Origin: Fuerstiella marisgermanici
GTDB taxonomy: Bacteria; Planctomycetota; Planctomycetia; Planctomycetales; Planctomycetaceae
Assembly (NCBI RefSeq): GCF_001983935.1
Contig: NZ_CP017641.1
Span: forward strand, 5,489,001-5,553,000
Direction: 5' to 3'
DNA length: 64,000 bases
A program made the translations under genes and the position numbers. This document shows positions 290-44,940 of this stretch, piece by piece; within the stretch, counting starts at the first letter, position 1, and each line of letters starts with the position of its first letter. The notes beneath the pieces were generated by a model, which was given only the letters and a program-made list of their open reading frames with translations, did not search any database and was not told the DNA's origin.

Positions 290-3200
290 TCGCACCAATG
301 CCACTCGGTCTCCATCGCCATCATGTTGGCCGATTGACCGCACCTTGCCGCCTTCGATGGACGCCACCGACCCGTTCAATAGCTCACCACCGTTTCGTGG
401 ATCAAACCATTTCACGGTGAACGTCCCTGAAGCTGACGTGAGGTCCAGATCTGTGGTGCCACCTTTTGGCAAATAGACGACGTACACCTCGCCAGATTTC
501 GCGAAGCAGTACTTACTATTATCGTGACCTGCATTGCCGACCAGTTCGTCAGCGGGCTGCATGTCGTGGAACGGAATCTTCTGGTCGTGGAAGAAGTTGA
601 TCGCGACGCGGCAATAGTCCCAGCTGCGATCGCGTGAACGCCAGTCCTCGCAGACGAGGTCGTTCTCGACAAACTGGTAGCCGAAGTAGTACTCGACTCC
701 CGCACCACCCCCCATAAGTGTGCCCCACAACGTCTGGTGCCGCACTTCGTGTTCGGTGTAGATCATCTTGCCCGTTCGGTCCTTGCCGTCGAAACCTTTG
801 TAGCCGAGGTCCGGACATTGCCCATGAGCCGCCGTGCCGGATTCGTCGAAGGCCACGATCCACGGCTTGCCGGCCTTCGCAGATTCCGTCACCCACTTCA
901 CAGTTTGGCTATGCGTATCCTTGATCCCACTGTTCTGCAGTGACACGCCCGTCAGTTCGGACCGGTCGCCCAGCAGCGGCTTGTAGACCTTGTCCTGCTC
1001 ATTCGGAAACGTGTGAATCACGATGTTGTGTTTATACGGATCTGCCGTCGCCAGAAAGTGAATCATTTGTTTCTGCTGCTCAGTCGTCTGAGTGTTCTCT
1101 TCGCCAAGGTTCCAGTTCAACGCGAGGTTGTGGCCGTACCTGGCGATCAGTTGGCCGCAATAGGCTCGCCGCTGAAGACCGAAGTCTCCGCCGTCGAGTG
1201 ATTCAGGAACGTTTCCTTTGCCGCCGTTGTGTCCTCGTTTGTGATCGTCGTTTTCGGTTTCCTGCATTTTGAAGTGCAGGTACATGCCCTTGGCGGTGGC
1301 GTGATCGAAAACAATCCCCCACTGGTCCAGCTTGCTGCAGTCGAAGTGCAGCTTGTCATCTCGATGAATGTACGGCCACACGTTGTCGCCGTCGCCTCCT
1401 GCGTTATAGGTAAGAAACGAGAACGCATTACACCCCTTGCCAGAAAGGTAGTTGACCGCTCCGATCAAGCCTTTGCCCTTGCCGTCTTTCCATGTGGGAT
1501 CGCCGTCATTCCAATCCTGAACATGTGGCCCCCAGGTTTTCAGCGGCACTTTGTCAGGCTTACCGGCGATGGTGTTGTCGAAGTCGACATAGCCCAATAG
1601 CGTTTCAGGCGCGTCGGCTCCTGCCTTCAGAAAGTACTTCTTGCTGCCGGCGAACTGGAGATAGTGTTTGCCGACGTACTGCAATCGCCCGTGCGCCCGC
1701 AAGTCGCGACCGGATTTATCCGTGGCGGCGATTTCGAACGAACCGCGTTTGTACTCGCGGGGAGCGTCAGCAACGTCATTCGGGATGTGCAGATCCTTGA
1801 TACGGATCGGACCGACTACTCGGTACTTCCAGGCTCCGGCCAGATCCGGCGACAGGTGGGCTCGCCATTTCGTTCCCGCTTCGGCAGACGTATTCGCCGC
1901 GTCACCATCGGCTGCGAAGTAGCCCGGCACAAGATACTTCGGTGTGCCGGACTCATGAGTAAACTCGACAGCAAAGAAGTAGTCCGTGAACGGATTCGGA
2001 TCGTTGTCCTGTTCGTGAGCGTATGGACCGTCGAGCGTCAGCGTGACCTTGTGCCACTGTTTGAGTTCGCCGGTAATCTTCACACTGCCGTCACCATCCG
2101 GCTGCCGCGGCATGATCAGCGGCAGCTTGCTGACGGGAATCGTCGGGCTACCCTTGGGCTTTGCTTTCCGCGGCGCCTGCTGCGAAGTTTGCGCCATCTT
2201 CTTCAGCAGAGGAGCGGCAGCTTTGCGAGTTGCATCGTTGGCAGGCTCAAACGTCACCGCTGCCCAGCGAGCTCGACTGAATTCCTGACCGTCCTTCGAA
2301 CCGACTTCGGCAGCAACCTTAATCACGGTGCCTTCCGTGAGCTGCACCTTATTCCATGTCTTGTGAAATTTGTCGTCCTCTTCGTACGTTTGCCCACTCA
2401 GCGGACACTTGAAGTCGCCAATCGCTTCTCCATCGGCACTCACAACGTACGTCGATTCTCCATCGTTCTCCCCCACGGCCTGCAACGTCACGTTGTACAC
2501 GCCAGTCGGGAAGGGGAACGTGTTTTCCGCGACGGCCTTCTTTCGCTGGTCCGGATTGATGGCGGCCCACTTGCCTCGATCCAGATAAAACCCGGTGCCG
2601 TCCAGAGACCATTCGGCTGCGGGCATCGTGAGCTGTTTTGCCTGAGGCACTCGGGCATCTGCATCAAGATTCTGCTGGATCCAGTTTCGCAACGTGCTGC
2701 TGCCTCGGCCGTATCCGCCGGGAAGTGGTACCAGGTCGCGGGTTTGAATTTTTGGTGGCTCACCCCAATGAGCGGGAAACTTCTTCTGCGCCTTCACCAA
2801 TCGAAATGCTTTGGGCGGCGTTCCTGCGTGAACCTCGCTGGCCGGACCAACACCGTCGGGGCGTTCGAAGTCGCGGTTTGTGGTCATCAGCCACTTATCA
2901 AACTCGAAGCCATCTTCGCGCATTGAAAAGTGGATTGTGTGTTCGCCCGGTTCTTTGATGTCCAGAAAAATCTTATAAGGCTCGCCGCAGTGTTCCTTTT
3001 CGGTGCGTTGCTTGCTGTCCCACCGCCAGGTTCGTTTCCCTTCGCACCACTGCAACCGCTGACCGCTGGCAGGCCATTCTCCGTCGAGGCCCACATGCAG
3101 GCCGTTGTCTTCACTGCCCGTTGAAAACGCTCGTACCCAAACGTAGTATCGCCCCGGCGTGGTGATGTGAACCTTGTAACTCAGCACCGCCATCCTGCCT

Positions 3201-3544
3201 GCATCCGGCGCAAAGTTCGTGCCCCTGATTAGCTTGTCATCGTGAGTCCGCCGCGTGTCCGGCAGAACTTCGAGATATGCTCCGCCACTGGCACCGGCCA
3301 CGTGAGCCGGGTCGCCGTCAGGTTCGACGGCGGGCTTGTCGTCGGCCGTTGTCAGGTAGAATGCACGCTTGTCCGCTTGCGACTGCTCAATAAAGTGTTC
3401 GGCTTCGACGGCTACGAGGCCTTCCTTCTCGGCGAAGACCAGGCTGCCATCAGCGATTGGCTCAGAAGAGCCTGCGGCGTTGGCAGCCGTCGGACTGAGT
3501 GCCAGGCTTAGTGACAGACAAGCGAATGTGAATTTGTGTAGCAT
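275..3544 (-). CDS. Secreted DUF5060 / apiosidase-like glycoside hydrolase
   Basis: A 1089-residue exported protein. I start it at the ATG ending at 3544 because this gives a signal peptide ([18 protein letters not shown]...ANA), whereas the longer frame adds 46 residues with no secretion signal in front. Order: a carbohydrate-binding-like N-terminal region (about 25-230), a linker and a second beta-rich region, a DUF5060 module (about 483-590, [20 protein letters not shown]), an apiosidase/DUF4038-like TIM barrel (about 615-975, with [10 protein letters not shown] and WIVAFDESG as likely acidic active-site strands), and a C-terminal Collagen_bind_2-like domain (about 1000-1089, [13 protein letters not shown]). 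Such proteins are thought to cleave plant or algal glycans outside the cytoplasm, which fits a marine planctomycete. The substrate cannot be read from the sequence. Confidence 0.85.
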
Positions 3545-3667
3545 GCGATATTGCTCCCGGAACCCGCCCTTGGAATACACCTCTGTTCCAATGTAACAAT
3601 GTCGGACAGAATCTCCACTAACCTCGACGGCCTGCCAGACCGTCCATGATCGAACCGAATTCTTGCC

Positions 3668-4498
3668 ATGCCTGACGATCAAAAACCCATCGTCTGCACC
3701 TTCGAAAGTCGTCGCGCAGACGACATGCGTTCCCTGATTGAACGATTCGGTGGGACACCAGTCGTCGCTCCGTCGATGCAGGAAGTGCCCCTCGAACAGA
3801 ACTCAGAAGCCATAGCTGCGGTTCAAAAAATCATCGCCAATGAAACGCAGTACCTGATTCTGCTCACCGGTGTCGGCGTGGAAGCAATGCTGGAAATAGC
3901 CGCCACACAGCAACTCAAAGAACGATTACTTCAGGTCATGAAGGACATTCCGTTGCTGATACGCGGGCCCAAACCGGCGGCTGTACTTAAGCGATTGGGC
4001 TTACAGTACGCCGTCAAAGCCCCCGAACCGAATACGTGGCGCGAGTTATTAGCAGCGATCGACGGAGCCAGCGTCGCATTGGAAGGGCAAACGGTGGCCG
4101 TGCAGGAATACGGCGTGTCGAATCCGGAACTTTATGACGGCCTGAAACAACGCGGAGCCACAGTGCTGCCCGTGCCCGTCTATCGGTGGGCGTTGCCAGA
4201 CGACCTTCAACCACTCGAATCCGCGATCGAGAAAACGATTGCAGGGCAAACCGACATCCTGTTGTTCACGAGTGCGCAACAGGTCCGCCATGTGTTGTTG
4301 GTGGCGGAACAGCGTGGTTGTCAAAGCGAATGGCTGGAGGCGGCGAACAGGATTCTGGTGGCGTCGATCGGCCCCACATGTTCGGAGACGCTAAACGAAG
4401 TCGGGCTGAACGTTGGCTTCGAAGCCAGCCCGCCAAAGATGGGGCCGCTGGTTCGCGGTGCTATTGCGGCGTTTCAATCCGGCGAGCCGAGCACATAA
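3668..4498 (+). CDS. hemD: Uroporphyrinogen-III synthase
   Basis: The 276-residue protein matches the HemD family in length and two-lobed pattern: an N-terminal '[21 protein letters not shown]' segment, the central '[14 protein letters not shown]' strand-helix, and later '[14 protein letters not shown]' and '[19 protein letters not shown]', the usual second-lobe signatures. The enzyme closes hydroxymethylbilane to uroporphyrinogen III in cytoplasmic heme synthesis. HemD is poorly conserved, so assignment rests on the overall pattern. It is divergent from the glycoside hydrolase (start codons 123 bp apart) and converges on the ABC permease. hemW, another heme-related gene, is 10 kb away and not co-transcribed. 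Confidence 0.85.
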
Positions 4499-4509
4499 GT
4501 CCTCGGCTC
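4484..4509. terminator. Hairpin spanning hemD stop, convergent junction
   Basis: GAGCCGAG (4484-4491) and CTCGGCTC (4502-4509) form an 8-bp perfect stem around a 10-base loop that contains the hemD stop codon. It lies exactly between hemD and the convergent permease gene, a good position for a bidirectional terminator. No T-run follows. Confidence 0.45.
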
Positions 4510-4521
4510 ACCAACGGAAAC

Positions 4522-6918
4522 TCAAATTCCAGCAGCGAGGTTGTTCGCATCGCTGGCGGGAGCATCGAACGACCGGAGTTCTAATTCCCGCTTCTCAACC
4601 TGCTCAGCGCGAAGGTCGCTAATCATGCGAGCGATGAGAATCGCCATGCCGATGCCACACAAAATCAGCGTGGGCATTTCGTAACGAAGCATGCGGCTCT
4701 CTTCGGAGAACACAGTTTCTGAAAAGAACACGCCGTCCGGTTTGATGCCAAAGCCGCCGCGACCGTGAAACGTAGCCATCGTGTTATTCACAAAATGGAA
4801 CGCCATCGCGGGAAACAAACTGCGACTGTGAACGGCCAGCAAGCCAAGCACGAGTCCCAACAGCGCGGCGTTGAATGCCTGTTGCGGAATCATGTGAATG
4901 ATGCCGAACATCAAACTCGACACGATAATCGCGACCTTTAATCGCCCGCCGCGAGCCAATCCGCTGAGGATAAAGCCGCGAAATGCGAGCTCTTCGCAGA
5001 TCGCAGGCGTAACGGCGAACACGGTGATAATCAACCAGCGAGGCAGGTCAGTGGAACTCAACAGCTTCGAAATACGAGCCAGCCCTTCTTCAGGCGGAGC
5101 GGGCAGAAACCCGTATTCGACAACAAAGCTGCTCACTTCGACGCTTAACGGATGAGCCAGCACGGCAAGGCCAACTCCCATCAGCATGGAGCTCAAGGTT
5201 GGCATGCGAAGACGGAAGGTCGCTCGCAGACTGGTCGTTAACAATATGCCCATAAACACCGCAGGACAGGCGATCATCGTCAGCTGCTGAATCACCATCG
5301 TCTGCATGACTCGTCGACCGACCACCGCATCGGTGCCCACAAGGTCGGGCTTCATATATTTCATCGCAACGAACTGCAGGAACAGAATCACGATAAAACA
5401 GAACACAGCTTCCGGAAGGGCTGGAACTGGTTCCTTGTCGCGAGTCAGGTTGCTGAACCACAATCGCACGTCGAACTTTTCAGCTTCGCGGAACAGTACG
5501 CCTTCACTGTTGTAAAGATCGATTGCCCACCACAACGCTAACATGCTGTACCCAAAGCTGGATACCAAAACCGGGATCGCATACATCAGCAAGTCATTCG
5601 ACTGCGTGGCGGTCAGCAGCAAACCTTTCAGCAGCAACGCCACGTTCACAACGGGAATGACGCTGTAAAGGGGCGTGATCTCAATCGCTGGATTCAGGCA
5701 GAACATGGTCAGCCCCAGAATCACCATCAACAACGGCGTAAGATAGTACTGGCCTTCCTTGGTCGATTTCGCGAACGTCGCCAGAGCCAGGCACAACGCG
5801 CTGAACAACGCAGCCAGCGGCACAAGCAGGATCACCAACCACATCAAAGCTGCCGCGCTGGGGAATTCCAGGTTAACAGCCTCTACGGCTCCCGCCCCCA
5901 TCGCAGATGCCAAGTGTTGGCCGGTGAATCCCATGCTTAACAGGTTCATCAGGGCTGTTCCAATACTGAACAGCAGGATCGTCATGAACTTGCCCATCAC
6001 CAGTTCGACTCGGCGAGCGGGACTGATCAGCAGCGTCTCCATCGTGCCGCGTTCTTTTTCACCGGCCCCCAGGTCGATGGCGGGATAGAAGGCTCCGGTT
6101 AACGCCATAATGACGATCATCGCAGGGAAGAGTTTACTCCACACATTGGCCGCCACTTCTTCGCCGCGCGCAACTTCAATCCATTCCAAGCTGGCCGGAT
6201 GTTGTAACTCCGGCCGCAAAGCTGCCTTTTCAAACGTGGTAGCGCGCAGGGCGTCTTCCCAGTTATTTAAAGCGTTGCGGATGCGGCCGAATGCCACCGC
6301 AGACTTGTCGTCGGCGCTGTTGCGAAGAACCTGCAGTTTGGGGACGAACACGGACTCGTCATCACTCACGGACGAATCCGTTTGTAGTGCGGCGATAGCC
6401 TCGGCATAACCATCGGGCACCATGACCAAGACCTGAATACCGCTATCGTTGAGCTCACTGCTGATTTCGTCGCGGATTTGCGCACGAGCGGCTGGATCTT
6501 CTTCTGATTCCGCAGCAGCCTGATACTGCGTCAGCTTCTTGTGCAACTGCCGGCCGCTCTTGAGCAGTTCGGCATCGGACCTTGCCTTGTGCGTTCCGGC
6601 AGGAACGGTTTCGTCTGCGGAGCCCGGAAGATCAACCACAGCGCGGAGACGTTTCGCGTCATCTGCGCCGCCGGGAAACCATTCGTCGCGGATTCCGTCC
6701 TCGCTAAGAAACGCTGGATCCGTTGGCAATTCTTTAGCGTTCAGCACAACGACCGTACGCTTCTGCTCACTGAACGTCAGCATCATCTGCACCACGCCCA
6801 GCCCAAGCATGGGGTACAGCAGCACAGGCAGAATCGTAATCATGAACAGCGTGCGACGGTCGCGCAACTGGTCACGTACTTCCCGCAGGAAAATCAGTTT
6901 GATGTTTTTCCAGCTCAT
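4522..6918 (-). CDS. NatB-like ABC-2 permease fused to CPBP protease
   Basis: A 798-residue membrane protein with two parts. Residues 1-480 are an ABC-2/NatB-type permease: first membrane segment near 25-48, a long extracytoplasmic domain (about 50-260), then five or six helices after '[20 protein letters not shown]' (about 284-303), the standard ABC-2 signature. Residues 500-798 are a CPBP (CAAX-protease-like) domain with EELAFRG (642-648), GIIH (H675) and AFHFVNNT (H708), the glutamate and histidine motifs expected of the metalloprotease. The start codon overlaps the stop of the ATPase gene by 4 bp (ATGA), so the two are translated together and should form one exporter. The fusion physically links export with a membrane peptidase. 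The substrate is unknown. Confidence 0.88.
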
Positions 6919-43218: not shown

Positions 43219-43461
43219 GAGGTCTACCGAATGGTCTGGCGTAATCGCTGTGGGAGCACCGCGATGCGCTGATGGCCGAATGATCGAATTCCGGCTGGAA
43301 CCGCCAGAATGATCCGGGAGTTTAGGCCCCTGCACACCGTTCGGCAACGGCGTGACCCCACATTCCGCTTTTACTTGAAGGGCGAGCTACGATAACCTGC
43401 CGTGGTTCGACGGCGTGCCGCCGTTGCTTCCTCGATTGGCCCAAACCGCAGAGAAAGCCTC

Positions 43462-44940
43462 ATGTCGATTCAGAAGGCGGAAGAACTTAAGCAAAAATGG
43501 ACCGACAAATACGTCTCAGTGTTGACTGGCGTGGCCGAACTACGCCGATTTGAAGGTCTGGTCGGGCAGGTCAAGACCGTCAACATGAACTGCCGGCTCC
43601 TGGTTCAGTTCGACACGCCCGCAGATATCAGCTGGTACGATATCGACCCGGAGTATTTGCAGATCGCGGCCCCGAAAACAGCAGCGCAGAACGCTCCCAC
43701 TGCCACCGAAAAGCCGCAAACAGCGGCGACCGGATCCGGCCGAACGCCCCAGAAGAGCTCGCCGGGCGCAAAGTCGAAATCGGCTGCACAAGCGAGCGGC
43801 GCAAGCAGCAGTCCGCTGGACGCGATTCGCAAGCAGGCAGCTTCAACGCCGAAGTCACCGCCACCGGCAGGCACCGCAACAAAGCCAGCCGCGAGCCCAC
43901 TGGATGCCATTCGCCGTCAGAATGCAGGCACTGCCGCGACCGCTGAGGCTCCCAAACCAGCGAAAGCAAAATCATCGGCCGGCGCGAGTCCCCTGGATAC
44001 GATTCGCAGCCAGAATGCGGGCAGTCCACTCGCCGCCAAAGCCCCACAACCGCTCGCCGATACGCCTGCCACAGTCGCAAAGAACACGGGCGGCAGTCCG
44101 CTCGATCAAATTCGCAAACAGGCTTCCGCCGCAAGCGAGCCACCTGCCTCAAAAACAGCCGCCCCCAAGTCCGGCAGCCCGCTCGACCAGATTCGGTCGC
44201 AGGCTGCAGCAGGCACTGCCCAAGGCAAGGATTCTGCCAGCGCGGATGCAGAATCGCCGAAGAAGTCTAAAACCGAACCGACCAACGCAGCTGCTCAGCA
44301 AGTCAGTTCGCCGGCAACGCCTGAGGCACCGTCGACGGAAACCACTGCCAAAGCATCTGCGAAGTCCGCCGCCGAAATCCTTAATCTGACCACACCGCAG
44401 CCCGTTCCAAAGTCAGCCGCCAGTACACCGCTCGACCAAATACGAAGTCAGGCGGGCGAAGAACCCGGAACCGGAGCCGCCACCGTGTTCGATCAGGTGC
44501 GGGCTCAGGCCGCGAGTGAACAAGACGCGTCTCCTGTTGCAGAGCAGGGCGGTGCGCCGGCGAATCCCCTGGATGACACCGCCGCATCATCCGGCAACTC
44601 TGCCACCAGCGATCTGGCGGGCGACGAAGATCCCGTTAAACAGACATTTCGCGGCAAGAAGCTGCCAAAGCAGGACGACCTGAAGATCGTCGAAGGAATC
44701 GGTCCAAAGATCGAAGAACTTTTTCACGCCGCCAACATCAACACATGGCAGGCCCTCGCCGCCGCCGAGCCCGAACGCTTGTCACAGATCCTGAAGGACG
44801 CGGGTCCTCGATTCCAAATGCACACCCCCGACACCTGGCCCCACCAGGCTCAACTTGCCGCCGAAGGCAAGTGGCAGGAACTCGAACAATACCAGGACCA
44901 CCTCGACGGCGGCCGGTCGGCACGCACCGACGGGCGGTAG
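43462..44940 (+). CDS. Ala/Pro-rich protein with SPLDxIRxQ motif array and C-terminal HHH domain
   Basis: 492 residues from ATG 43462. Residues 1-70 form a small folded domain ('LKQKWTDKYVSVLTGVAELRRFEGLVGQVKTV...VQFD'). Residues 80-400 are low-complexity A/P/S/K sequence carrying seven copies of a short motif, S-P-L-D-x-I-R-x-Q, near residues 117, 145, 177, 212, 239, 322 (TPLD) and 341 (diverged VFDQVRAQ). Residues 405-480 hold a helix-hairpin-helix-like domain ('DDLKIVEGIGPKIEELFHAANINTWQALAAAEPERLSQIL') of the DUF4332 kind. No membrane segment or signal. The layout suggests a flexible tether with repeated docking sites; the partner is unknown. Confidence 0.8.
   Translation: MSIQKAEELKQKWTDKYVSVLTGVAELRRFEGLVGQVKTVNMNCRLLVQFDTPADISWYDIDPEYLQIAAPKTAAQNAPTATEKPQTAATGSGRTPQKSSPGAKSKSAAQASGASSSPLDAIRKQAASTPKSPPPAGTATKPAASPLDAIRRQNAGTAATAEAPKPAKAKSSAGASPLDTIRSQNAGSPLAAKAPQPLADTPATVAKNTGGSPLDQIRKQASAASEPPASKTAAPKSGSPLDQIRSQAAAGTAQGKDSASADAESPKKSKTEPTNAAAQQVSSPATPEAPSTETTAKASAKSAAEILNLTTPQPVPKSAASTPLDQIRSQAGEEPGTGAATVFDQVRAQAASEQDASPVAEQGGAPANPLDDTAASSGNSATSDLAGDEDPVKQTFRGKKLPKQDDLKIVEGIGPKIEELFHAANINTWQALAAAEPERLSQILKDAGPRFQMHTPDTWPHQAQLAAEGKWQELEQYQDHLDGGRSARTDGR

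Follow-up and report, generated by a model that had tools for sequence, protein, structure and literature searches.

The Locus and Its Product

A stretch of 64,000 nucleotides from the planctomycete Fuerstiella marisgermanici (contig NZ_CP017641.1, positions 5,489,001 to 5,553,000, forward strand), called here the window, contains a gene for a protein of 492 residues, P0001, in which a small N-terminal domain (N-domain), an array of short repeated motifs, and an HHH domain follow one another (Table 1). A second array of this motif type was found outside the window, ahead of the membrane helix in the Rieske iron-sulfur subunit of a cytochrome b complex, and the arrays of the two proteins track each other across genomes, although unevenly. 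The ATG was taken as the start of P0001 because homologues start at the same Met; an in-frame GTG is also present at 43402. Both terminal domains that the original prediction had described are present, and the AlphaFold model is confident for both.

Of the two paralogues in the host genome (8.9 Mb, one contig), the window gene is the longer and has an added HHH tail; the other encodes a shorter N-domain protein with an SPLDKIRA array and no HHH domain. Two side observations can be added. The shorter gene (L018 8975-9736) lies near genes read from the sequence as an apparent type VI secretion cluster and a HEAT-repeat protein. On the minus strand of the window (43628-44152), long antisense open reading frames (ORFs) run across the array region; they are probably a product of the codon composition of the array.

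Table 1. Features of the P0001 gene, in window positions.
Feature	Position	Strand	Basis or remark
P0001 ORF, 492 aa: N-domain, motif array, HHH tail	43462..44940	+	ORF list
N-domain, residues 1-70, predicted SH3-like barrel	43462..43671	+	AlphaFold pLDDT 84-97 (by tens)
Motif 1, SPLDAIRKQ	43810..43836	+	
Motif 2, SPLDAIRRQ	43894..43920	+	modeled helix 148-153
Motif 3, SPLDTIRSQ	43987..44013	+	
Motif 4, SPLDQIRKQ	44095..44121	+	modeled helix 213-220
Motif 5, SPLDQIRSQ	44176..44202	+	modeled helix 241-246
Motif 6, TPLDQIRSQ	44425..44451	+	
Motif 7, TVFDQVRAQ, divergent final motif	44482..44508	+	
C-terminal HHH domain, residues 403-484	44668..44913	+	profile and PDB matches, AlphaFold

The Motif Array Is Maintained as Protein Sequence

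The original prediction counted seven near-identical motifs, 20-80 residues apart. Six copies do fit the strict pattern [ST]PLDxIRxQ, whereas the seventh is too divergent to be called near-identical. The spacing is roughly as described, with a slightly broader range (19-83 residues from start to start, linkers of 10-74 residues). The strict motif occurred in none of 20,000 shuffles of residues 71-395. Comparison of the six strict copies at their seven fixed positions gave 105 codon pairs, of which 53 were identical, 47 differed synonymously, and only 5 changed the residue; the array is therefore kept as a protein sequence and not as DNA. It had also been claimed that the linker varies while the motif is held, and four HHH-bearing relatives agree: their identity to the window protein is 59-75% in the motifs and 28-41% in the linkers. 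The opposite outcome, a linker retained with the motif lost, was not seen among the proteins read, in which loss of the array went together with loss of the tether. The final motif is of the Phe type in six of the seven long relatives listed, for example PIFDQIRRQ (L019), TIFDQVKVQ (L021), and SIFDHIRAQ (L024); in L023 it is TILDQIRAQ.

Most family members that were read carry an array. By pattern, 127 of the 131 N-domain proteins (some of them entered under two identifiers) have at least two motifs, 108 have 3-5, and 3 have none. Two repeat forms occur in the family, an SP-type (SPLDxIRxQ, SPLELARQQGAA, SKIELARLQGA) and an ST-type (STADILAAARGKK, MSVEEMLAAARG). Both fill one alignment position among the C-terminal copies (SPLDIIRAQGAFKG and TTAEIIALARQQGAFKG), and when anchored on the Arg they share an L-x-x-[IA]-R core after Ser/Thr. 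AlphaFold places a helix at three of the seven motifs of the window protein and at all four motifs of one short relative. As a separate observation, two proteins of one genus (L005 and L006) have near-identical ends with three internal motifs in one and one in the other, a natural contraction or expansion. Taken together, the idea of repeated docking sites with a putative binding function is partly supported.

The same data bear on whether the arrays are merely products of low-complexity slippage that have no partner and a slight tendency to form helices. Array length does vary inside one genus (224 aa in G137, 169 aa in G194), and the linkers are rich in Ala, Pro, and Lys. However, slippage accords poorly with the excess of synonymous over replacement differences and with motifs better conserved than linkers. 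Arg, furthermore, is found at its position throughout the 271 unique SP-type windows (to two decimals), although the search pattern itself demanded Arg or Met there. We consider slippage very unlikely.

A further proposal is that the motifs resemble WH2 and have a bacterial actin-like filament as their binding partner. The family profile matches N-WASP entries in the PDB (3m3n_W, E 0.0053; 2vcp_D, E 0.14) in the tandem WH2 region, and the N-WASP segment LLDQIREG can be set beside the PLD-IR-type repeats. These matches may, however, be inflated by similar linker composition, and the internal repeats lack the LKKV end of the WH2 consensus. No Pfam WH2 match was obtained with the window protein, three full proteins, or ten motif peptides, though HMMER filters may drop weak short matches. 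The proposal seems highly improbable.

An Undescribed Family in Planctomycetia

Within the searches made, the protein with N-domain and array is a previously undescribed family of Planctomycetia. As the original prediction had supposed, no described family covers it: scans of 12 + 3 proteins placed the N-domain (about 70 aa) in no family of Pfam or NCBIfam, and sequence searches with it in Pfam, NCBIfam, and the PDB returned nothing usable. A single-sequence query detected the N-domain in 14 of 294 genomes across the phylum, all of the host's class. With a profile, it was found in 130 of the 150 genomes of the host family (f1) and in 56 of 119 from a second family (f2). Two copies are present in seven of the eight genomes of the host genus, and the Fuerstiella relatives L023 and L024 are long forms without the HHH domain. 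Gene neighborhood was dropped as a functional guide because neighbors vary between genera; a LarC-like gene, so named from a reading of the sequence, is found at 24 of 81 loci, with others elsewhere.

A Rieske Subunit Carries the Same Motif Type

Searching planctomycete genomes for the motif, the check that accompanied the original prediction, recovered the family, but the motif is not private to it. Examination of neighboring genes uncovered five loci at which a Rieske protein adjoining cytochrome b bears STADILAKIRAAK-type repeats. The host genome's own Rieske protein has five such motifs ahead of its membrane helix. Its Rieske domain was confirmed (PF00355, E 1.5e-9, above the cut-off), and the adjoining gene reads as cytochrome b. 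A twin-arginine-like SRRGALG stands before the Rieske membrane helix, and the array-bearing tail is therefore probably cytoplasmic. Across 39 genomes with both proteins, the Rieske protein shows a mean of 3.9 motif-like windows (range 1-5). In a genome of family f3, a distant Rieske protein without an array occurs together with an N-domain protein with a single motif. In seven genomes, all from a single genus (g321), some 4-7 kb separate the two genes, which do not form one operon where this was read (L038).

Such an extension did not appear in the titles and abstract beginnings listed by literature searches on Rieske proteins with planctomycetes and on multivalent motifs with Rieske proteins, most subscription journals being outside these searches. 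The words "N-terminal", "disordered", and "extension" are absent from a paper on the anammox Rieske protein (PMC12954380).

Two side observations concern these proteins. Many N-domain proteins of family f2 end in a Cys-bearing motif such as ILAFCR or VSYCRQVDGG, with the Cys where the Rieske ILAACR has it; ILAACR is the first Rieske motif in some f2 genomes. These Cys-bearing motifs were noted at L106, L180, L177, and L117. In L162, the Rieske and cytochrome b genes are followed at 2553-6707 by a gene whose 1384-aa product, as read from the sequence, has many CxxCH heme motifs and an N-terminus resembling a long helix.

The Motif Is Largely Exclusive to the Two Proteins

An ST-type profile searched against the 294 genomes of the phylum gave 33 matches at E ≤ 1e-4, all in N-domain or Rieske genes. 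They come from 12 genomes, each of which belongs to the 14 that bear an N-domain; the other 2 of the 14 were missed. The SP-type profile (E ≤ 1e-3) gave 40 matches in 12 genomes, 38 of them in N-domain genes, and missed 4 of the 14 genomes. The other two matches are weak and single, one each in two genomes without the N-domain. A strict SPLDxIR codon pattern has 11 sites in the host genome (six in the window gene, three in its paralogue, and two elsewhere) against one for the control. Low-complexity sequence alone is therefore insufficient to explain the signal.

The two proteins also tend to occur together. Among the 150 genomes of the host family, 113 have both the N-domain and this Rieske protein, 3 have the Rieske protein only, 17 the N-domain only, and 17 neither; the N-domain is thus present in 113 of the 116 genomes with this Rieske protein. 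Among 30 genomes picked by hand, the Rieske protein was found in 9/10 f1 and 5/10 f2 genomes with the N-domain and in none without it (0/6 and 0/3), the one remaining genome being from f3. Where this Rieske protein is missing, the N-domain is more divergent and reduced arrays are more frequent. The 17 genomes with the N-domain only have lower N-domain scores (Mann-Whitney p 0.010) and include six of the seven lowest. At most one motif was seen in 4 of the 13 such genomes read, counted by eye with G412, G525, G530, and G430 left out, versus 1 of 34 with the Rieske protein, counted by script (p 0.017); that one genome, G105, shows two motifs by eye. Two short proteins consisting of an N-domain without an array (L323 in G458, 81 aa; L327 in G445, 71 aa) come from genomes without an arrayed Rieske protein.

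The Two Arrays Covary

The resemblance is closer within genomes than between them. For 39 of the 42 pairs (G416, G478, and G479 were left out because the script did not recognize their N-domain), the best motif score between the N-domain protein and the Rieske protein of the same genome averaged 27.8, versus 23.1 (sd 0.77) after permutation, and the mean score was 12.4 versus 9.9; neither value was reached in 5000 permutations. Family f1 alone (34 genomes) gave 24.5 versus 20.9, again with 0/5000. When partners were swapped with those of the nearest relative (30 pairs), the own pairing had the better mean score in 22 and the worse in 7 (sign p 0.008). These statistics were made without a tree, and the pairs are partly non-independent. 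Matched motifs within a genome are exemplified by KSPAEIMAAIRANKKA / KSPAEIMAAIRANKAA in G448 and LSTAEIIELARQQGA / LTTAEILAQARQQGA in G266. In five chosen pairs, different codons are used at 23 of 61 shared residues, so the likeness of the arrays does not stem from very recent copying of DNA.

The Fold of the N-Domain

Fold searches with the N-domain gave likeness, among others, to NdhS, FTR, PsaE, and PetP, which belong to electron-transport complexes as their cytoplasmic or stromal subunits. The KOW domains of Spt5 and NusG score nearly equally. Foldseek on its own found nothing at E ≤ 0.001, and fold searching in general returned just a common barrel. When 12 N-domains were compared with Pfam at E up to 5, the seven families listed included none for PetP, NdhS, PsaE, or FTR and no KOW profile; ribosomal L21e appeared once (E 0.097).

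The near tie lends some weight to a different view, that the N-domain is a KOW-type domain facing RNA or the ribosome in translation or transcription and that the likeness to the Rieske protein reflects little more than a common helical tag. In 4 of the 19 f2/f3 regions read (L151, L152, L156, and L161; three in f2, one in f3), a gene that reads as release-factor-2-like does lie no more than two listed genes away from the N-domain gene. This view leaves unexplained why the motif is confined, bar two weak matches, to two kinds of protein and why their arrays track each other. We consider it unlikely.

A Putative Shared Docking Code

With moderate confidence, based on sequence comparison and structural models, we propose that the family is a cytoplasmic multivalent scaffold that shares a putative docking code with the Rieske complex. 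By sequence and prediction, a compact SH3-like N-domain is followed by a disordered tether rich in Ala, Pro, Ser, and Lys that carries short motifs modeled as helices and, in the window paralogue, ends in the HHH tail. One receptor may read the arrays of both proteins, and its simplest candidate would be the N-domain itself. The protein could then cross-link to further copies of itself and to multiple Rieske tails, and cytochrome b complexes would be clustered or tethered on the inner side of the membrane. The HHH tail might connect the scaffold to a further partner. A more far-reaching version appears doubtful to us: the N-domain would be a PetP-analogous, SH3-like reader of helical arrays, its own and those of Rieske tails, that clusters or condenses cytochrome b complexes, with the HHH tail joining a second respiratory complex.

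Several results weigh against the shared docking code. Co-occurrence is strong when counted by genome (Fisher p 1.7e-10) but not by genus (p 0.055), because the absences are concentrated in few genera. When partners are exchanged between relatives whose Rieske cores are at least 80% identical (50 ordered pairs), part of the signal is retained (+2.3 versus +4.7 for own partners, centered best score), and 11 of the 39 genomes are negative by this score. By best score, the nearest-relative swap favored the own pairing in 17 cases and the swapped one in 11 (sign p 0.34; Wilcoxon p 0.009). Arrays also persist without this Rieske protein, as 9 of the 13 genomes read with the N-domain only keep at least two motifs; self-association or another client must therefore suffice there. 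Finally, AlphaFold models of the window protein and a short relative show no docked motif.

The last two points equally suit a receptor in a third, as yet unfound protein, such as an assembly factor, a localization hub, or a protease adaptor. Both arrays would be received by it, and the N-domain protein and the Rieske protein would be clients that need not touch. Exclusivity and covariation are as compatible with this arrangement, and arrays that survive without this Rieske protein require a receptor beyond the Rieske complex. Its cost is an extra unseen component, when the N-domain is already there in almost every family genome with this Rieske protein. We regard a third protein as possible, but as a minority view.

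A multivalent motif scaffold is a kind of protein already known; what was not expected is its tie to a respiratory subunit. Two unrelated kinds of protein have matched arrays, and the peptides, the candidate receptor domain, and the Rieske tail are all directly testable. If the more far-reaching version holds true, Planctomycetia would own a dedicated multivalent system that organizes the respiratory chain. A scaffold that clusters respiratory complexes would also give the HHH tail its first functional setting. We know of no bacterial case in which a soluble multivalent scaffold clusters respiratory complexes.

Comparison with Known Systems

The HHH tail has a counterpart in a bioenergetic complex. 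HHH_5 matches the window protein below the Pfam threshold (E 7.5e-5, 23.6 bits against a cut-off of 27), a comparison with protein-O (8yy9_O) gives E 5.5e-6, and the modeled helices have pLDDT values of about 83-94 (by tens). The tail is optional: besides the window protein, four members (L019-L022) of the set of 80 named relatives have it, and 4 of the remaining 76 extend beyond the contig end. According to the consulted sections of PMC12079452, protein-O of the Dinoroseobacter RC-LH1 complex likewise carries an HHH-type domain at its C-terminus on a long flexible loop. It differs from the window protein in its membrane-anchored N-terminus, and a motif array is not mentioned in those sections. 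The same sections note HHH-type domains on subunits E of NADH dehydrogenase and ATP synthase and term the function of the tail obscure.

PetP, which has an SH3 fold and belongs to the cytochrome b6f complex of cyanobacteria (PDB 2n5u; PMC9342900), is one of several SH3-like folds that score about equally against the predicted fold of the N-domain. The N-domain has no match to the PetP sequence family, and the window protein adds a motif array and an HHH tail. PetP is a subunit of its complex; any contact of the N-domain protein with the cytochrome b complex is putative.

PopZ of alphaproteobacteria, as portrayed in the consulted parts of PMC9512792 and PMC5182065, joins, much as proposed here, a short helical client-binding segment to its other parts by a disordered linker, but there it is a single helix and not an array. 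Its C-terminal DUF2497 gave no match in the window protein (E up to 1) or in the host genome's Rieske protein and two N-domain proteins (E up to 10). The PopZ helix, MEEILASIRR, resembles the ST-type motif. CsoS2 and EPYC1 are also disordered proteins in which repeated short binding motifs gather many copies of one enzyme. They differ in motif and client: in these systems the array binds the enzyme, whereas here the presumed client bears an array of its own.
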